Shown: piece by piece, positions 2,726 through 54,900 of the stretch | How the letters are laid out: every line of letters begins with the position of its first letter | How positions within the stretch are numbered: position 1 is the first letter of the stretch | Source: Venturia oleaginea | Lineage: Eukaryota > Ascomycota > Dothideomycetes > Venturiales > Venturiaceae | NCBI GenBank assembly: GCA_013176395.1 | Contig: JABMLP010000002.1 | Coordinates: 930,001 to 994,000, forward strand | Reading direction: 5' to 3' | DNA: 64,000 nt | Position numbers and translations under genes: made by a program | Notes under the pieces: model-generated | Seen by the model: the letters and a program-made list of their open reading frames with translations, nothing else | The model's database searches: none | Told to the model about the DNA's origin: nothing

Positions 2726-3793
2726 CGAATTGGTGAAGCTTGGACCATTCGATGAGTAAGCTCAAGCGGGGCCAGCTTGATTGGCCAAGGTCATGTGATA
2801 GATGTTGGCATAATCTCATTCCATGGATCTGACAGGCTCAGAGCCATGCTCCAAGGATCTTCATACACCCTACCGTCTCTGTCCATCCTTCAGCCCTTTC
2901 TTCCCTATGCAATCCAAGAGAGGCCCCAAGGCTCATTTATGATGACGCGGACGAGGCTTGCGAGTCCAGACATTATAAGCTTTGATACATGTTCGAGTTG
3001 GGCTGGATTACAAGACTGCATGATGCCAGACATCCGTATTTCTCTCCGATTCCTTCACGTCCCTCAGCAACATGCACTGATCTTCAAGCGTTTAGATGGT
3101 TGTGAGTCTGATCACACCGATGGCGCTGGACAGCGTCAAACAGCAATTGCAAAGAGGCTGCCATCAACGATAATTCCTAGCCATATCGACAGCATCCTTC
3201 GCAAAACCACGAGGCACGGTTGTAGTCTTTGGTCTCGGAATTGCGAGAGTATTTCACAGCTCTAACAAATCTGAACGAATTCCTTGGGACCGCATGCGAT
3301 ATCTGATTTCAGTCCTCCCGTTCCCGAAGACTTGATAAAACCAAGCCGTATTACTACGATATTTAGCCATGGGACGCAGACTTATGGCCCATGGTTGCTT
3401 CACCAATTCAGTATCTCTTACCCTCTGGAATACTAAGATAACACCTTTGCACTTCGACTCTATGGATTTCAGATCGATATCGATAAAATCCTAGTGACTT
3501 GAAGAAATCCTTCCGCCAAGAAATTATCGATATATTCAATCCTTCGATTAGAAATGTCGAAACGAATTGATAATCCTATTGCGGACTAACCAAGTTACCA
3601 TACTCCGCAGTCTGTCTGTGTGCTGGAATTCTCAAAGACAGATAGAGAAAACGAGAAGAGGCAGTCAAATTTACATCATGCCTCCAGAACTCCTGGCAAT
3701 TTATTGTTTGGAACTCGCCAGAAGTGAAGCGATATCAATCTCAAATTTTAGGGACTTCTTTGAAACAGCAATCTGTGACTAGACTCGGCACCA
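2726..3793. other. Intergenic region between U6 and the MON2 3' end
   Basis: A 162-codon plus-strand frame (2777-3265) shows no recognisable domain and no gene-like features. The notable content is the hairpin repeat at 3471-3535, listed separately. Confidence 0.45.
3471..3535. repeat. Intergenic copy of the MON2-intron hairpin repeat
   Basis: AGATCGATATCGATAAAATC and CCGCCAAGAAATTATCGATA form the two arms of an imperfect inverted repeat that matches the cores found in six MON2 introns. It lies about 260 bp past the MON2 stop codon, so it is outside the coding part of that gene, possibly in its 3' UTR. Confidence 0.7.
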
Positions 3794-6700
3794 TCAGATC
3801 TTGAACTCGTCGCCAACCATGTCTAGCAAACCCTTTGCAGCATCAATGATATCTTCATCTGGTTTCGCTGTTCTACCCGCTACATCTAGAACCTTGACGA
3901 CGAGTGGATATAACCTCATTAAATGCCTTTTCTCGTCACTCTTTACCCCCCTCGCCTCGGGAATAGCCTTCGGCTCCGTGACCAGTTCCGTCATTCGCCT
4001 TAATACAAAAAGTAACTCTTCCCTCTCACTCTGTGGTTGCGGCATGTATTTACCCCGAAGCGGTTGATCGGCGATATAAGCCTTCAGCGGTGATGCGGCG
4101 CGGAGTATGAGATATGGCGTGGCTGCTTGAGCGAGTTTGATGCGTGGCGGCGATGAATCGTGCTTAGCGCTTAGCGAGATAAGGTTATCGAAAGCTTGAT
4201 AGGCCATTACGCCTCGAATGTTTGGATCGGGGTCATATGTTCTGCCGAAGCGGATATTGTAGAAATCTTTTAGAGGTTCGCTTTCGAGGTTCGGTATTTC
4301 ACTGTCTTGAGTGGCGTGGATGAGGGAGCTTTCGAAGAGGGCGCGGGTGTATGTTCGGCGTGTGGTGTCTGGGATGCTTGAGGAGCCCAATGCTGGAATG
4401 ATTAAGCTGTTGAATTTGACGAGGGAGGCGACGTCAAAGTCTTCGTCCTCGAAGATGGGCGTGGATGATGGCGCACTATCAGTATCTGCCGGCATACAGG
4501 TCAGCGAATTATTTTCCAATAGAGAAACTAACATTCCGTTCGTTTTTTAAACTCTAAAATCAAGAGCGATATCGAAAAAATTCTGGCCATCCAATCCGCG
4601 GAAATCGCCAGAAAATTTACAATATCGACACAAAACAAGACACTAGATTTCCAAAATAGCGGTATCAAGGCTGTCGACTCACCTGCTCGTGTTATGCCAC
4701 GACCGCATTGCACGATTACCTCCCAGTACTTCTGCGACTGTTTAGCACCTAGTCCAATGTCGAATATGCGAGGGACAGTATGCTCGAGCACAATCAGTAG
4801 TGTAGACGTTGCTTTCTGCCACAGATATGGCGTCTTGCCTTGCTTTCCCCATTGGTATTTTAGGCCAATTGGACGTTCCAGATTGGTAAAAAGCAATAGC
4901 AATGAGTCCTCAAAGATGTCATTGCAACTGGCATGATGCACGATGAAAGTTTGGGCAAGCTCCATTGAAGCCTTTGCGAAGGCGACAAAGGTGAGCCCGG
5001 TCGACTCCATCTCTCCTTTCCCAGCCTCGAAAGGCAAACCGATAAAGCGAGCTAGAAGAGCGCAGATGGTGGCCGGACCGCCCTCTAGGTCGGTTCGCAA
5101 CATCGATAGGCATCCTAGGACCTCTCTTTGCAATTTGGTCAAAGAGTCCACGTCGCTCGAGAATGAAGGCAACTTTGACCTCCGCACTGCCAGAACGCGG
5201 GTTAGTTGACAAACAAATGTTCCATTCATTGTGGAATCGCTCAATATGTGATCGATATTGATAATCTTCTGGCAAGTCATTCTGGGACATTTGCCAGGAT
5301 ATTGTCGATACCGATATAGGATGAAGCAGTGAAAAGTTAAGTAGAGGGATTTGAAAAAACGATTCACTCACGTGCGAGCTCAAGATTTTCAGCAATGCGA
5401 CGAATAGCTTCAGGCTCAATATCAGACTCTGTGAGCCGATATACTTCTTTCAATGATCGAATGTAGGCTTCAAGTGCCTCCTGGTTTGTATTTGACACCG
5501 GATGTGGTTTCGTTTCAGGGAAATGGCGAGCCCAGATACCCGCAGCTTGCTGAACGGCCTCACTCCCGATAGCCTTTGGTTTGGGAACGTTGGATAGTAG
5601 CTCTGTCAGCGACGTATAAACAGCGGCATTCATGTCGTGAATATGGCAATCGAGATAAGCCATCAGAATCTCCATAAGTCTTTGCCAGATGCGTTGGAAT
5701 TGAGAGCATTGGGCGATTGCAGGGAGATAAATAGCTATCAGCTTGCTGGAGCCTTCCAACATGAGTTTCGAGGTGACGATATGACCTTTGACTATTGATA
5801 CCAAGTCATCAGAGTATGGACCGTCTATTGTTGGGGACAAGCTATGGTATACATTGGCGTTAGCTCTAAGCATTGGGAGAAGAACGGTCCACAGGCAGAG
5901 TTGCCAGGCATCCGAAGATATCTCGTCGCCGTGGTTATCGAAAATTCGTAAGATAGTATGTATAGCGCCTGCACGGCGAGTCAGCGAATTGGAAGTCGAA
6001 AGAGCTTATTACGAAATACAGTCCGTAACTGGAGATCGATATCAATAACTTTATGGCGGTCTTAAGAAACAATATCGCCAGAGATTTATCAATATCGACC
6101 TGGATTGAACATTTGGTAAATCAACAGGTGTCAGATCAGACAATCACATACCTGTGCGGACCTCCTCCCTGGGGTCTACAGTCATGTCGCTAACCCGACG
6201 GAGGAGCAGGATCCAGAGTGCTGGTTTTGATCCTTTTTCAGCAAAGTCGCGCAGTTCTTCGCCCATCACCTCTGCAGAAGTGTTAGAACCGTGATGAACA
6301 TCATTCGAGAGCTCATCGAGCGACTCTTTGGTGGTCTGCCCGAATAAGAGATCTGAGAGCTTCCAGAACAGTGTTGTAGTCTAAGTATTTTGTTAACAGC
6401 GTTCAATATACGACTTGAAGGTTGCTCACTGTAAGAGAGACATTCAAGTCCTGGACTTGATTGCCAAATTGGTATATTGTCTCTACCAAGATCAACAAGC
6501 AGGAGTCAGGTACGGAAGACAGAAAGTCTGAACAGATGAGTTGGACTGACCCGAAGGCTGACCGCCCTAAAGATACAGTACATAGCGAAGATCTGGATGG
6601 CGTCTCAGTAATTCGTGGCGACCCGAACACACTACCAATGACGTTGAATACAGAGGTCCAGCCTTCTGTTAACGAGTCACCGGTCTGCTCAAGTATCGCT

Positions 6701-9700
6701 CTCAGCGTCTCCAGAGCTATTGAATGTACCTCGTTTGTAGTGTCGTCAGATTCGTGAACTCTCCTTGTAATTGTGTTGCACAGCAATAAGAGTGCAGACA
6801 GCGATCGGCACTGGACCTCATTTTGCTTTTCGGCTTCCTCTTCTGCCGAGAAACTGACAGTGTCCCGAGTCAGGCGACTGAGAAGTTCGGCCGCCAGGAG
6901 ACGAGCGGTGCTTGGATTGTCACGTTGCATAGCGACTGCGGTAGTCGTGGATATGAACAGATCCCAACCACTTTCTGCGGGATCATTGGTGGTGAATCTG
7001 TCCACGTTACCCGAGACAAGTTCGCGTATTTTTGAGAGAGCGAATATGTAGTCTTTGTCCGTTGAATCTAATATTATTGATGACCGCGAAAAGCTAGAAA
7101 TTCTACGATGTTGTCCACCTGGAGTTGGCGGGGGTGTCGCTTTCGGTTCTTCGGACAGCTGCTTCGTATCAACGAACAGGCAGAGCGACTGAAGAATTTG
7201 GACGAAGGACTCATTCGGAAAGTCGACGGTACTCTCGAACAGTCGGGACACTGCAGCTTGTATGGCGTTGACCTCCGAGGCAATGACCTGATGGTGTGGT
7301 GGCTCCCCTGATGAGGATATAGTTGTCTGGGAGCCTTGCCTGGTAATTGGCCTTAAGCTGGAGCTTGCCATCACTTTGTCAGCTTGTTGTAAAGTCTCAA
7401 ACACTATGCTCCATGAGGTGTCCAAAGTTGGCCCCAGTGCAATAGCAAGGTTGAGTAATGCTCTCAAGCATAGCAAATTCCGTGAACTCAGTGTAGGCTC
7501 TCCTGAATCGATGGACGTCCTTCGGCCTCGGTCTGATAACACGCAGGTCAGTGAATTCTGTGCTTTTAAACATCCAACTACGCCGTTAAGTTCAGAATCC
7601 TTTAAATGAAGATCGATATCGATGAATTTCTAGCAATTTTTGAGAATTATTTTGCCAGAAATCTATCGATATCGAACAAAAGCTAAGCGTTAAGTATCCG
7701 GAACAGTGCAGCCAAGGGAAGGAATTGATGAACCTACCTGGTAGCAAAGTCGAAGCCTGGCTGACAGCTTGACTGACCAGATTCTCGACATTCATGAAGC
7801 CTCCTTTCCCGGAATTAGGACTCTGGGCCGAGTGAACGGACGGCGAAGTAAAGGACCCCGCAAGCACGTGTGAAGGGACTGCTGCTTTTCCAAAAGTTGT
7901 AAGGAAAGCGTCTCTGGGCGTCGACATTCGCAGTAATCCAGCGACTTGGGCAAATTTTTGAAATGCTCTCACCAATGCACGGTAATGCTCCGAGTCCAAT
8001 GAGGCATAGAAGAAAGTTGAACAGCTTGCAAGAATGGCTGGCCAGCAATCGTCTACCAGCTTAGCTACGGTTTGAATCGTAGTCAAGGCTGGATGGTTCG
8101 CGAGAAGGAGAGGATTGACTGGTACGCTTCGTTTATTGTATGAATGTGACCTCTTTAGCGAAGACCTAGCTTGGTCTCCCGATTCAGCAGTTGTTGACGA
8201 TGGCTCTTCCTCCTCGACGATTTGAGCTTTGTTCTTCTTTTTGCCTTTGCTGCCATGCTGCACCGTCAACGGCAAGATGAACTTTGCAAGACTTTCGGCC
8301 AGATTATTTAGACATGACAAAACAAGGCTGTATAGGTATGTTTCAGGCAGAGACGGAGCATCAGACTTGTCTAATTGATCTATGCAAGGAACTCGAATGG
8401 AACTCCATTGGTTGCTGATGCCAAGGGCGTTAGTTAATTCTGTGCCCGCTCCACAGTTTGAAACTTGGACTATACCATTCGTTTCGTCAGCCCGTAATGA
8501 GATCGATATCGACAAATCTCTGACAAATAAAGAAGATTTATTCGCCAGGGATTTATTGACATCAAATTCAAGTTGAGCAGTAGTTCTAATACTAGAAGTA
8601 CGATCAAAGCGAAGAGAATTGGCAAACGTACCTGATGCCAGGAACAGACGCAGCGCCGACACCAGCAGTACCCTCAGCGCCAGCCAGGGAATTTGGATCG
8701 GTGGCAGAGTCTGGATTGGCTTCTCGTTGAAAGTAGTTTCCAACGGGAACCGTTGACTGTTGGCTCATTCCGATGAGAGCAGGCTTTTCAGACGCCAGTC
8801 TTACAAAGCTGGCTGTGCACGACCGTATGATGGATTTCCCATTCTTCTGCTGATCGAACGCTGCATATGCTTGAAGAACAAGACGTGGCTCCGCAAATAT
8901 GCCTCGGAACACCTCCATACACAATACCTTCTTCCATCCAGGAACGACGTCTCCTTGCTCAATTACATGGTTGAAAGAATGTAGAATGGTTTCGCATTCT
9001 GATGAGAACAGGGCAAGATGATTTCGGACAATCAAATAGAGAAGGCGAGTGACGCGTACAGTAGTCGAGAACGGTTTCTTCTCAGCAAAGATATTGATCA
9101 GAAATGGAAGAAGCGATGTTCGAACTGTGTGGGCGAGTTCGGGGTGAGTTGCGATCTTTTCAGCGTGGCTGACGAGAATTGTCTCCACCAACTCAAGTGA
9201 GGCAGATTCTGCCATGGGAGAGAATCTGACGCATTGCGGCCTGTCGCCAGTGGTCATGAATACCAGATCCTGGAACACTCGAAAGGTATCGTAGGCTACA
9301 GCACGCACCGAGACCTGACCATTTTCACCTGGCACTTCTGCTATAGTGGGAAACTCCAGAGCTTTGATATCCTCGTCGCCAAGCTTTTCAAACAGCGCTG
9401 AAAATAATTGCTGCAGAGTTGCTGTTGCTGTTGAGCTCACTGAAGGGGTTTTCGAAGTCTGGAGTATGGAGCATGTTTGCAAAAGCGTGAACAGCAGGCC
9501 GCCGCGAATATCGTCAGGATAGTTCTGTAGCAGAGGGGGCAATGCTTGTAACACCTTGAGCTGCACATCGAGACCTACTGTACATCAGCTCAGCTCGGGC
9601 AGACAGGCAGAACGACAGTACCAAGATTACTGCATTCCTTCATGGAATCCAGGACTTCTTTAAGACGTGATTTTGGCAATGCTTTTGATACGGCCAGTCT

Positions 9701-10124
9701 TTGAAGGCCACTGATTCCAGGGCCAACATATTTGAGGGTTTTCGAGAGAGCGGCAATCAGGAACGGTTCGATAAAACGTGGCCGTCTGGACAAGTCTACT
9801 GCTAGTTGGACCTCTGAAGTCGATGGCAGCGACTTTAGTTCTTGAAGCGACTGATCTGCAGCCTTGAGAGAAAAGTTAGCCGCATTGGCTCTCTTGACGG
9901 TAAGCTGAAACGCATGCAACATGTTCAATTCGAGATCGATGTCGTTAATTTTCTAGCGACCTTAAGAAATGGAATTTTGGAAATTGATCGATATACATCT
10001 CGAATTGAGGGAGGGTTCGAATCGAAGTTGGGCATGCATGGCATACCGTCCGCAGCTCAGGGAGCTTCCTTTTGCTCTCGAGCGACAGAGCAGTCAGTTC
10101 TGCGCTGAGGATGTTGGCCGTCAT
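3794..10124 (-). CDS. MON2: MON2, Sec7/BIG-related Golgi-endosome trafficking scaffold
   Basis: Nine exons (minus): 10047-10124, 9622-9862, 8632-9577, 7738-8414, 6430-7532, 6152-6380, 5372-5968, 4683-5186, 3794-4485; total 5067 nt, 1688 residues, the usual size for fungal Mon2. Every junction is GT-AG and in phase. The start MTANILSAELTALSLESKRK and ELRTAADQSLQELKS give the conserved N-terminal (DCB) segment. VQLKVLQALPPLLQNYPDD, VRAVAYDTFRVFQDLV and WKKVLCMEVFRGIF belong to the DCB/HUS helical repeats. STRNLLCLRALLNLAIALG-like and LWILLLRRVSDMTVD blocks continue into HDS repeats, and the tail ends LLDMVGDEFKI. Mon2 resembles large Arf-GEFs but lacks the catalytic Sec7 domain; it acts with Dop1 and the flippase Neo1 on Golgi/endosome membranes. 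Six introns (1, 3, 4, 6, 7, 8) are 183-217 nt and share a repeated hairpin; introns 2 and 5 are ordinary (44 and 49 nt). It is divergent from MMS2 with 284 bp between start codons. Confidence 0.94.
4486..4682 (-). repeat. Introner-like element, MON2 intron 8
   Basis: A 197-nt intron (GTGAGT...GGCAG, phase 1). Its hairpin core is at 4564-4630: in the sense direction TCGATATTGTAAATTTTCTG pairs imperfectly with CCAGAATTTTTTCGATATCG. The 3' end AATTCGCTGACC followed by CCGGCAG matches introns 4 and 6. Exon flank GAGCAG resembles the intron end GGCAG. Confidence 0.8.
5187..5371 (-). repeat. Introner-like element, MON2 intron 7
   Basis: A 185-nt intron (GTGAGT...GGCAG, phase 1) with the hairpin core at 5249-5317: TATCGGTATCGACAATATCC pairs with GATTATCAATATCGATC, with CTGGCAA and TTGCCAG facing each other. 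The 3' end carries CAACTAACC as branch-like site. Exon flank CTCGCA before the intron resembles CTGGCA at its end. Confidence 0.8.
5969..6151 (-). repeat. Introner-like element, MON2 intron 6
   Basis: A 183-nt intron (GTATGT...GTGCAG, phase 1) with the hairpin core at 6032-6099: GGTCGATATTGATAAATCTC pairs with AAGTTATTGATATCGATC. The 3' end AATTCGCTGACTC is nearly the same as in intron 8. The flanks CCGCACAG (exon side) and CCGTGCAG (intron end) agree at six of eight bases. Confidence 0.82.
7533..7737 (-). repeat. Introner-like element, MON2 intron 4
   Basis: A 205-nt intron (GTAGGT...TATCAG, phase 1) with the cleanest hairpin of the set at 7611-7674: CGATATCGATAGATTTCTGG pairs with CTAGAAATTCATCGATATCG. 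The 3' end GCACAGAATTCACTGACC aligns with GCACAGAATTAACTAAC of intron 3. Flanks TGCTACCAG (exon) and TGTTATCAG (intron end) agree at seven of nine bases. Confidence 0.85.
8415..8631 (-). repeat. Introner-like element with 9-bp duplication, MON2 intron 3
   Basis: A 217-nt intron (GTACGT...ATCAG, phase 2) with the hairpin core at 8500-8563. The exon sequence immediately before the donor, TGGCATCAG (8632-8640 on the complementary strand), is repeated exactly as the last nine bases of the intron (8415-8423). The coding sequence therefore reads through as VPGIS-NQW whichever copy is counted as exon. This is the arrangement expected from insertion with a target-site duplication that supplied the acceptor AG. 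Confidence 0.88.
9863..10046 (-). repeat. Introner-like element, MON2 intron 1
   Basis: A 184-nt phase-0 intron (GTATGC...CTCAAG). It contains the hairpin repeat at 9926-10007. Its outermost arms are a perfect inverted repeat, CAATTCGAGAT and ATCTCGAATTG, followed by the CGATGTCG/TATATCGAT part shared with the other copies. The 3' end GCGGCTAAC resembles the others less. Confidence 0.75.
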
Positions 10125-37045: not shown

Positions 37046-38865
37046 GCGACCGGGTCCAAAACGGTCGACTACCGGAGCTGGGGATTTAGGTACGGAAGAA
37101 AAGGAGAGAGCTAGGGACGGAATGGAATGAGATCAGCCGGTAAAGGAAGCAGCGGTTGAGAAGGGGACTATATTATATAGTTAACGGCGGAACGCAGGCG
37201 ATTCTCTATAGATACGCCGGCCGCCTGCGGGGCAGGGCAAAGGGTTTTCCCTTAGGGGTTTTTCCTATGTATGGTAACATGTCTGCGTAGGCCAATCAGT
37301 GGTCCGTATCGGACGTTAAACAAGAATTTAATTAAATTACAGGATTTGCTTGATATCGATCCTGTGGTGAGGGGATTCGACTTTGACTAATACCTTTGGT
37401 TCTTGGAGATGGGGAAACGGAAAAGCGTCCTCAATGGATGACTTCAATGCAGCCGCGGGCAAAACATAATTGTATGTAAATTACCGCAAGGCAGACTATT
37501 CGGCAGTCGGTGCGGCCAGACCAGATGTCTTCTTTGCTTTGAGGGCTGTCTCCATTGGTTGTGGGCGCTCCCCGTCATTTGGATCTGGGGACTGCTAGGA
37601 GGTGATGTGAAACTTGTCGAATTAGACTCCATAAATGCACCCAAAGAGTCCAAACACAGCATTCACCAATACTAAAAATGGAAGACAGGCCACAACAGCC
37701 TTCCATCCCCGAGATGAAAAACCTCAAACGGTGACGAAAGAGTCTACAGGGAGCTCAATTTATGAACTCTAAGTTCAGAAAGATGAGGTACGCATACTAT
37801 GCCCTAATGCAGGCACAAGTAAACAAGCCCTTGAGAGTGTCAATGTCCAACTGCAACTTGAAAAATGTCTTCGGCGTCTACGGAGCTCTCTCATACTGTG
37901 GGCGGACCAGATGAAGGGAAAGTGCAAAAGATATTGATCCGCAACCTTATTGCGACCTTGCCAGAGTTCGACAAGAACATGCTAACAAGTGGAAGGAAAT
38001 TACGAATGACAATCAAGGTCGCAAATCAGATGATGGCAAGTTCGCAGCAAATCTACTAAACCTGGAAACTCTGGTGTCAACTGGCATAGATATCTTCATG
38101 TCCGACGTAAAGTACCCTGGCAACCAAAAACCATCTCGGCGGTCGATAGCATAATCACGCGTTGAAAGCTTCAACCTCGATCTCTGTCAAACCGCGTCAC
38201 ACTTGCTATTGGATTCTGGGCAGCCTAGCCGACACTGTGTGCGGAAGATGTGAAGTACAAGCCCGAAATCCCGATGGACCTTTTGTGTTACTACGTTCCC
38301 TGCTACAACCACCGTTCTCCAAATCCAGACTATTCCATTCAAGACTGTGTTACAGATGTGAACTTCAACAGGAAGTCACATTTTCCGAGTGGGTGGACCT
38401 TATCTCGCATGGTGAAAGGTGCGGTTGGCCTGAAGTTTCTTTCTGCGTGGAAGCTACAGTGGGGCTGACGTTTCATTCTTTCACGATATTTGTTGGCTCT
38501 GCCAGCAGAATGATCTCAAACTGGAAAAAGGGGGAAGTACTCTATGCAAGAGGGTTCTTCTATTCATCTCTGGAGCACGTCAACAGAGAAACAGATAAAA
38601 GAAAGACGGCACAGTTAACCAAAGACTTGCAGGAAATGATCATGAATGGACGAAGAAATGGGTGATGTGCAATGATACGATGGAGGCTCATAGATCTGTG
38701 TCGCAAAATGGTAGACCACGAAGATGCAGATACCCATCGTCAGCAACATGGGACTGAAAATGCTATTGTTCAACTGTGGCTCAAATTTCTTCGATATACC
38801 ATCAACGATATCGTCCACTTTGTTCACCACAGCGGTGCATTCAATTCACAAAGTGTCTCACACTG

Positions 38866-38935
38866 ATATCGATATCGCTGCATTTCGGGCGATTTAGTTT
38901 TTGCAACTTTGCCAGAAAATTATCCATGTCGAACC
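38866..38935. repeat. Intergenic copy of the MON2-intron hairpin repeat
   Basis: TGATATCGATATCG at the left and TTTGCCAGAAAATTATCC at the right form the two arms, with diverged middle. It resembles the MON2 intron cores in spacing and arm sequence. No gene is recognised around it. Confidence 0.6.
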
Positions 38936-39027
38936 CACATTAAAAATGACACTCAAGGTCATCTAATGATTACTATCCTACAATTCTAATTTGAAAATCA
39001 TATCTCCTAGCAGAGCCTAATTCTTCA

Positions 39028-39056
39028 TGATCGACATCGATGAATTCTGGCAATTC
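39028..39056. repeat. Half copy of the hairpin repeat
   Basis: GATCGACATCGATGAATTCT followed by GGCAATTCC matches one arm of the repeat; the second arm is not found within 60 bases. Confidence 0.45.
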
Positions 39057-51970: not shown

Positions 51971-54900
51971 GCGCACTACCCTGTCTCGCCTCCAGATATT
52001 ATCCCTCTGCATATCTCAACACCCTGCCACTTGAACCTCGCACGCAGATGTCCTCTCGTGGTCCCATAATCGGCCAAGTATCCCATGTCCTAGAGATCCT
52101 CATCAAGCATCTCAGTCATCCGCCAGGCTCAGGCCAGTTGAAACCAGCTCCGAGTTATTACTTTTAGTTCATGGTAGGGCTTGGGGATCGTGCAAAGGAT
52201 CCCCAGTTCCTGAATCGTTCGAGCAAGCATCCGTCTTGTATTTGATTGGTCACTGATAGTTATATCGAACTCTTGTGTAAATAGCCATCCTGGTTGGTTG
52301 TGACTGCGATGCTCGGATTTCGCTCCTATGGATTTCGTCATTCGGTAGCTAGGTCTCATTGCAAAACACTACCCTCACTATCCCGTTCCATCATTCCAAC
52401 GACTTTCGTCCAATCTCTTTGCTGATACCAGCGTTGTACAAGCTGTAATATTTCTTAAGAAGGGCTCACCGTAGGCTCTTCTCTTTCGGTTGATACTGGG
52501 ATGTCACTGATGTCAAACTGAAGAGATTTCCCCATCTCGCAGGCAAACATTCCGACCTGAAATAGACGCAATGGTATTGCCCTTCTCATGTCACCTGCAT
52601 AATCTGAGCTTTCTTGTCTTCCCATAAGCGCAGGACGGGAAATGTTCACCAGCTTGATCTCAATTCTGCCAATACATTTGCTACCTCTAAATCTTACCAC
52701 AGTCCTTTCGTCAATTCATGTCTGCCAAAAATCATGCTGTTCAAAAGTTAGACTTTTGCTCCAAGAAAAAGTACCCTCCATTCGACCGGAATAGGCAATT
52801 CTCCACGTGACAGCTCCTCATATGATCGGGGTCTAGAACTCGATGCTAACGTCATTTGCTTCTTCCATAACTGTAACGATAAAATTTACACTTTTAACGG
52901 TCCCGTTCTCTATTACTGGCGATTCACGTATTTTCAACAAAGATTTCTCAGACTAGAAGCCCGCCGTTTCCAGTCACCATTCATTCATTCTGCAATATTT
53001 GCACCATTGTCACCCAAACCCAAATTCTTCTCCAAAATGTCAGAGACCATTGCTGGGAAATGAAATTGCGGTCGTCATGAATATACGATCCCACCACCTA
53101 AAGAAATGAATCTATGTCGTATGCTTTAAACTAACAGATAGCTTCATATGGCCCCATCACTAATAAGCATCAGATTGTACTAGCTGCCGGAAATGGGCCG
53201 ATGCAATGTGCGTCTTCTCTCAGCTACTCAACTACCCAGCCCATCTATACGCAAACCTCAATGAGTAGCAATTGAACCTGCTCTGACTTCAGCACTAGGC
53301 ACTCAGCCCATCTCTTCGTCAAAACAGCCGATATCAAAACCTCCTCTCCGAAACCAAAAATATGGGTCACCGTGGCTGAATCAGGCCAGGAAATGGAGAG
53401 GGAGTGGTGTGACGAGTGTGGATCGGGTATCTGGTTGGGAAGGAGCAGCGATCCAGGTATGACTTTTTTGAAAGCTGGCAAGTGAGATTCTTCTAATTTG
53501 AAAGAAAAAAGCGACGATATACTTTCCAGTTGATAGCTTCGGAGCGCAAGATTATTTGTGAAACTATCCAACTAATGACAATCAAAGGTCTGTTCGAACA
53601 TGTGGATATTCCAAACCCGACTATGGAGAACTGGCAGAGGAATATGAAACCGTGGGGAACGCCTGCGAAAGGGACGAAATATCAGAATCAGGTTGGCTGA
53701 AGAGGAGCATCCAGCTAGACTCTACTAAGAACTCAAACTTCAATTTCAATACAATTTCAGTATCAGTATCTATTCTTCTCCGCTTAAATACAAACTTACA
53801 ATAATTTGCCATCGAACCCAAAAATTATCTCCTACTTCTCTATTGCTCAGCATCGAAAAGCAAATGGCTGTCAAGGTGACAATGTACCGCCCTCCAGGTA
53901 CGCCAACTACATTCTTCCCCTTCCTCGTCTCGATTTATGCCGTCGTTGTCATGGATCTTGTGGTAGAACAATGTTTTTTCCCATTCTGGACCCCTGTTTT
54001 GGCGCATTTATAAACACAACCACCCACCTCAACTGCTACATACGGCCACAGAATGAAGAAAACTCGAATCCCCTTTCGCTCATTCATAGATAAGCTTCAT
54101 ATCGGCGAATTAGTAGTTGGGTGGGTGACCACCAGCGAATCCCCGCTGCCGTATGTTTTTGTCTTTTTGACGAACGAATTCATCTTTGGGGTTTCCTTGG
54201 GGGTTAGAGTAAGCCAGTGTCAGTACTGTATTAGAGTTAATATCTGTATATACTACTGGTTGGCACCTTGTCGCATGCTCTCTAGTTCAGCCACTCGACT
54301 CTCAAGCGCGCTGGTGTATTCTTTCTTTTGGTCTGAGATTGTGGAGAAATCCGTGTGAGGTCTTCCCTACATTTTTCAGACAAGATCACAGTTTTAAATG
54401 GCCAACATCTTTCATTTGGCGAGGCTGGAAGAATTATCAGCAATAGAGCGTCTAGCATGCAAACGGGAGACAGAGACGCGATATGTGGCTCTTTGATAGT
54501 GCTGTAACAACTTTCTAGACGAAGTAAGTTATACTATAGATTGGAGACGCAAGCTCTCTCAAAGAGGAGCTGCCGGTCCGCCTCGATAGTTTTCAATTCC
54601 ACAAGACACGAGAAGGACCGTAATATTCGATCTATTACAATGTTCCTCTATGATCTACAGCTCATCGGAATGGCTTTCCCGAGCGTCAGATCTGTTCTGG
54701 TTGGCTTGTTCGTGGGCTAGATGAGCTGGGGAAACGAGGAAGAAACAATAGAGATCATTTCTTTTTTGAACGAATGGGACGTATGAATGGAAGAGAAAAA
54801 GGAGAATGAGATGAAGGGAGACGTTTGATGGAAGTGAAAGAAGAAGAAGAGGAGAAGAAGGTTGAGATCTGATTGACACTTGCACGTCGCGTAGAGACGG

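Follow-up and report, generated by a model that had tools for sequence, protein, structure and literature searches.

The long introns of the Venturia oleaginea MON2 gene as members of a repeated hairpin family that probably spread as a DNA transposon

The MON2 gene of the ascomycete Venturia oleaginea lies in a stretch of 64,000 nt (G000:C12:930001-994000, hereafter the window) of a genome of 46,083,126 bases in 61 contigs, and its six long introns form one repeated family that has likely, at a probability of roughly 0.8, spread as a non-autonomous cut-and-paste DNA transposon, that is a miniature inverted-repeat transposable element (MITE), with predicted splice signals in its ends. The notion draws on sequence shared between loci from the donor through the branch site, on target-site duplications (TSDs) of 4 nt at the intron ends, and on relatives outside coding sequence that carry terminal inverted repeats (TIRs) and duplications of their own.

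The predicted spliced frame of MON2, with the introns removed in silico, is open over 1688 amino acids, and its closest relatives among the named hits are the proteins of V. nashicola (85%) and V. effusa (82%). A sequence-only reading of this DNA had described introns 1, 3, 4, 6, 7 and 8 as long and introns 2 and 5 as short, and the lengths are indeed 183-217 nt as compared to 44 and 49 nt:

3794..10124, minus strand: MON2 gene, nine exons and eight introns, ATG starting at 10124 and stop codon running to 3794
9863..10046, minus strand: intron 1, 184 nt, hairpin arms at 9936-9997, the outlier of the six
9578..9621, minus strand: intron 2, 44 nt, short and without the hairpin element
8415..8631, minus strand: intron 3, 217 nt, intronic subfamily, hairpin at 8503-8565
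8635..8638, minus strand: exon copy of the intron 3 TSD, GCAT
8418..8421, minus strand: intron copy of the intron 3 TSD, GCAT, after which comes the acceptor CAG (8417-8415)
7533..7737, minus strand: intron 4, 205 nt, intronic subfamily, hairpin at 7613-7675, duplication CTAC/TTAT (2/4)
6381..6429, minus strand: intron 5, 49 nt, short and without the hairpin element
5969..6151, minus strand: intron 6, 183 nt, hairpin at 6036-6098, duplication CGCA/CGTG (2/4)
5187..5371, minus strand: intron 7, 185 nt, hairpin at 5252-5314, duplication CTCG/CTGG (3/4)
4486..4682, minus strand: intron 8, 197 nt, hairpin at 4566-4628, duplication CGAG/CCGG (2/4)

The inverted repeat attributed to all six long introns is present in each of them, but its arms are 18-19 nt apart, slightly less than the 20-30 nt that had been stated, and the branch-site block reported to end introns 3, 4, 6 and 8 is found there in the form AATT(C/A)(A/G)CT(A/G)AC. 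In a protein alignment all six long-intron junctions are free of gaps in V. nashicola and V. effusa, and among the eight relatives aligned to MON2 the single gap touching any of the six junctions is that of P0129 at intron 4. The six introns score 68-86 bits with a covariance model, values that are circular, as these very introns went into building the model.

We can conclude that the shared hairpin is not due to chance, since a two-arm pattern that specifies 16 bases, holds the loop at 19 nt and allows at most two mismatches, searched across the whole genome, was found 521 times forward and 523 times in reverse, compared to 8 and 10 times for a reversed control. The pattern being nearly palindromic, the forward and reverse counts describe largely the same places, and the roughly 500 hairpins with a 19-nt loop are a lower bound because the pattern misses hairpins with loops of another length and copies that have diverged further; a genome-wide search for the core had been suggested from the sequence, and by this pattern the genome holds about 500 or more copies. 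Matches to a single arm (753 and 726 in the genome) were disregarded in counting copies, since among 30 such loci extracted 13 are a gypsy-like open reading frame (ORF) that shares the arm. The hairpin occurs both within and outside genes, and among the 45 scorable copies of the pattern list (L089-L142) coding sequence was called on both sides on one strand in 9, on one side in 15 and on neither in 21, the matching classes for positions drawn at random from the window and the loci holding 215, 180 and 109 of 517, with the remainder on opposite strands. A strong bias toward genes was accordingly not seen in these 45 copies, although the method, a Markov coding scorer, underestimates the intronic share, as it calls coding on both sides for no more than 5 of 11 copies known to be intronic; an intron finder based on codon usage was also tried and proved too weak. 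In one locus (L020, G000:C4, about 416000-419200) six hairpin copies of mixed intronic and TIR type lie within 3 kb. It should also be mentioned that hairpins at G000:C8:15140 and 24884 and at G000:C14:1065661 and 1075405 have identical loops and an identical spacing of 9744 bases, which indicates a large recent duplication.

The copies that lie in introns share far more than the hairpin. Among 17 aligned introns, copies from different loci are homologous from the donor, where they start with GTAGGTTCATCAATTC, through the branch site, with a right end near CTAACCCGCGTG, and their identity to the consensus is about 85% or lower. The start pattern matches the genome 10 times (control 0) and the end pattern 26 times (control 5). 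In 22 of 32 intronic copies the branch motif starts at a constant distance of 19 nt from the intron end, and these 19 nt consist of 12 nt from the element, usually with TG as the last bases, then the 4-nt duplication and the 3-nt acceptor. The predicted spliced frame, judged over at most 100 nt on each side, is open in 28 of the 32, with in-frame stops located within the introns, and the others are L076, L145, L148 and MON2 intron 1, the last scored with an end that was later corrected. One of the copies, L156 (G000:C13:1151180-1151660), is an intron of 57 nt that has both ends of the intronic element but lacks the hairpin, and it looks as if an introner were turning into an ordinary intron.

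The ends of these introns furthermore carry the trace of a short duplication, which was examined by comparing the 4 nt before the last three bases of the exon with the 4 nt before the last three bases of the intron (positions -7 to -4). The 32 intronic copies, comprising the 6 of MON2, 5 hairpin hits, 7 hits of the 5'-end pattern and 14 others, match at 73 of 128 positions, where permutation gives 38.2 ± 5.0 and a maximum of 60 in 20000 permutations, and of the 24 offsets compared, offset 0 alone stands out, the other 23 being at background. The flanking positions show no significant excess (15 against 12.0 at -8, p 0.10; 23 against 20.5 at -3, p 0.07) and -2 and -1 show none; the clear excess is thus confined to -7 to -4, from which follows a duplication of 4 bp, and an 8-bp, hAT-like duplication was rejected by the same position-wise permutation. 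The copies were gathered by several routes and their ends were set by eye except in a blind test, in which a rule picked the acceptor and -8 to -4 matched at 84 of 155 positions (48.6 ± 5.3 expected, maximum 69). The rule agreed with the chosen acceptor in 29 of the 32, differed for MON2 introns 1 and 4, being right for intron 1, and gave none for L156. With corrected ends the count over -8 to -4 is 88 of 160 (50.2 ± 5.4), and for the copies outside MON2 alone it is 71 of 130 (41.8 ± 4.9), while the six MON2 introns combined match at 14 of 24 duplicated bases. Left out of the count were L074 and L077, where only the start matched, L155 with unclear ends, L161, which is a TIR element, L158-L160 and L162, which are hits of the 3'-end pattern without a full element, and L002, L021, L043, L091 and L112, possible intronic copies whose ends are not settled; L145 was kept although its acceptor is doubtful. 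The description of the long MON2 introns as introner-like is therefore borne out by the homology across loci from donor to branch site and by the TSD at the intron ends, the latter being in addition indirect evidence that such introns are newly gained.

The hairpin is however not specific to introns, and a wider family is built around it as its core. Members of a second type, about 215 bp long and located outside coding sequence, end in CAC..GTG with TIRs close to CAC(A/G)GTGGCTTCATCAATTCAGTGCCC, a pattern that matches the genome 39 times (control 0), and the inverted repeats of this type are strong (0 of 5000 shuffles as good). The 4 nt just outside CAC..GTG match at 54 of 92 positions against 26.4 expected in 23 copies with paired TIRs, corresponding to a duplication of 3-4 bp, and an offset scan reaches a maximum z of 6.25 as compared to 3.7 in 300 permutations. 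The two types are tied together by sequence outside the hairpin, in that the left flanks of their consensus sequences align with a z of 7.6 (0 of 5000 shuffles as good) and the right flanks modestly with a z of 3.1 (48 of 5000). Comparison of the flanks of 61 hairpin copies gave 54 significant pairs against 1 hit with shuffled queries, the homology fading, where it reaches furthest, some 80-90 nt away from the hairpin. The existence of TIR-bearing members outside coding sequence favours DNA transposition over an intron multiplying as an intron, and of the earlier proposal that a mobile intron had multiplied, the introner-like spread holds, with a mode of multiplication that is probably a different one. 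The element L079 (G000:C24:123560-123790) is of TIR type and about 145 bp long, with both TIRs present and the full hairpin missing.

On the DNA transposon reading, insertion into an exon at NNNN^CAG would duplicate the four bases NNNN and yield, with a slash for the predicted splice junctions, NNNN-(CAG/GTAGGTTC...hairpin...CTAACCCGCGTG)-NNNN-CAG/exon, the element itself having the outline CAG/GTAGG...CTAAC...GTG between the copies of NNNN. The donor would be the CAG/GT in the left end of the element, where CAG would correspond to the CAC of the TIR-bearing relatives, the branch site would be the CTAAC in the right end, and the acceptor would be the CAG already present in the target exon just beyond the duplication. 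With donor and branch site supplied by the element and the acceptor by the target, splicing would restore the original codons. Transposition by a source transposase and splicing of the inserted element are what we infer from these features, and the proposed route would also account for the acceptor being a CAG that pre-existed in the exon.

A number of observations weigh against this reading. MON2 intron 1 fits it poorly, with 1 of 4 duplicated bases matching, and it scores higher with the profile of the TIR element than with the intronic profile (50 and 33 bits). Five of the six long introns of MON2 were seeds of the intronic profile, making their scores with it circular. The inverted repeats of the intronic type are weak (290 of 5000 shuffles as good for the flanks and 76 of 5000 for the ends), and intronic copies searched one by one gave almost nothing with the TIR-type flank profiles, namely 8 matches in 62 flanks, the best at 7.3 bits, against 1 match among 310 shuffled flanks. 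For as many as 82 of 121 hairpins the scores with the intronic and the TIR profile are less than 20 bits apart, and further subfamilies therefore probably exist. The duplications are decayed, with 4/4 bases matching in 7 of the 32 copies, 3/4 in 8, 2/4 in 6, 1/4 in 9 and 0/4 in 2. Finally, searches of the genome for hAT, Plavaka and Transposase_21 brought up no autonomous element carrying these TIRs. Of 70 hAT domain and 39 Transposase_21 matches, the one closest to a hit of the TIR pattern (39 hits) is still 18 kb from it, none of the Transposase_21 matches is within 65 kb of these hits, and Plavaka gave no match in the genome and none in control genomes either. The family does not resemble hAT elements, as the TIRs of six hAT loci inspected among the 70 differ from that of the element by at least 6 mismatches in 20, and the 8-bp TSD was not found; three of these six loci have the inverted repeats CAGTGCG.. 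and CAGTGATG...

The notion that excised introns were instead reverse-spliced into other transcripts or DNA is the published reading for fungal introners, going by excerpts of PMC9860276 and PMC8469720, and it is in agreement with the weak TIRs of the intronic type. Such an RNA route gives no reason, however, to expect a 4-bp duplication where the introns end, or TIR-bearing relatives that lie outside coding sequence and have their own duplications, and we consider it improbable for the Venturia family. It is very unlikely that a hairpin element common by its core alone was inserted repeatedly into old and unrelated introns, for although the first BLAST matches spanned the hairpin only and many hairpins lie outside introns, the homology of the intronic subfamily extends to the donor and branch site and the duplication sits at the intron ends, so that both reach the splice sites. 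Individual copies, MON2 intron 1 among them, may nevertheless have been inserted into an old intron.

The arm consensus also shares the 22 nt GATATCGATAAATTTCTGGCGA with a repeated gypsy-like ORF, which may suggest that the hairpins are kept as small-RNA precursors against this retrotransposon. The 22 nt are exact in 12 of the 13 gypsy-like pol ORF loci among the 30 single-arm loci extracted (L041:1497-1518, L044, L048, L049, L054-L056, L058, L060-L063 and L067), where they encode part of IQDIDKFLAKK ahead of the reverse transcriptase, and by chance alone a particular 22-mer would seldom be matched. Selection on the RNA stem was looked for and only weak covariation was seen, with 62 compensatory double changes against 48.4 ± 6.0 and a maximum of 68 in shuffled data, and since a small-RNA function furthermore leaves the duplications and the TIRs unexplained, we regard it as hardly credible.

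Transposons of the CMC superfamily (CACTA, Chapaev) have CAC..GTG termini and TSDs of 3-4 bp. The TIR-type copies resemble them in their CAC..GTG termini, which some copies have lost, and in their 3-4 bp duplications, but differ in that no transposase could be linked to these TIRs. DNA-transposon introners of algae and protists were reportedly described by Huff et al. in 2016, and introner-like elements of Dothideomycetes are said to go back to van der Burgt in 2012. The former, as far as the excerpted accounts go, are likewise short and non-autonomous, make a duplication of few bases, and carry one splice site while taking the other from the target; a Chrysochromulina family, for instance, has 4-bp TSDs, carries its 5' splice site and co-opts the 3' one, according to excerpts of a survey of eukaryotic genomes (PMC9860276). 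From the DNA-transposon introners in those excerpts the Venturia family differs in its ascomycete host, in the acceptor CAG lying just beyond the duplication and in the TIR-bearing non-coding relatives within the same genome. The same excerpts present ascomycetes as an outlier whose introner families lack TIRs and TSDs, and state that fungal introners have been read as RNA-based. While DNA-transposon introners are thus already known, the Venturia family would add one in a group where TIRs and TSDs had been reported absent. The introner-like elements of Dothideomycetes (PMC4457414, in part) are similar in being repeated full-length introns at many loci that are longer than ordinary introns, but are described as near-identical, up to 98-99%, whereas the Venturia copies, as given above, are more diverged from their consensus; a search of PMC4457414 for the terms TSD and transposon found neither. 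The sister stwintrons of Hypoxylaceae (PMC8469720, PMC12403724, in part) are proliferating fungal introns with long inverted repeats as well, but are described in those parts as lacking the flanking duplications that the Venturia introns have. No publication on a Venturia introner family was found in the open-licence literature searched, which does not amount to absence from print.

For the question of how fungi gain introns, the Venturia family offers a concrete and testable DNA route in an ascomycete. A wider proposition, that fungal introner-like elements are generally disguised DNA transposons whose TIR ends become donor and branch site while the target gives the acceptor, and whose TIRs and duplications are erased with age, so that a reverse-splicing model would be unneeded for ascomycetes, seems to us possible yet doubtful. 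If it were true, the Venturia family would be a case caught alongside its non-intronic siblings.

Three weaker matches to the covariance model (20-31 bits), unlisted in the sequence-only reading, lie in the window outside the MON2 coding span:

3460..3552, minus strand: further hairpin copy, 31 bits, downstream of the MON2 stop, with flanks resembling the TIR type
3662..3752, plus strand: weak hairpin match, 22 bits (20 bits on the minus strand), 42 nt downstream of the MON2 stop
38855..38946, plus strand: hairpin copy outside genes, 30 bits, without coding flank

Adjoining the last of these, a single arm-like stretch ATCGACATCGATGAATTCTGGCAA at 39028-39055 is perhaps half of another copy. The kelch protein of the window is, like MON2, closest among the named hits to V. 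nashicola (84%) and V. effusa (80%), and the window furthermore holds a U6 spliceosomal RNA gene at 2536-2638 on the minus strand (75 bits) and a 5S rRNA gene at 54038-54157 on the plus strand (80 bits).

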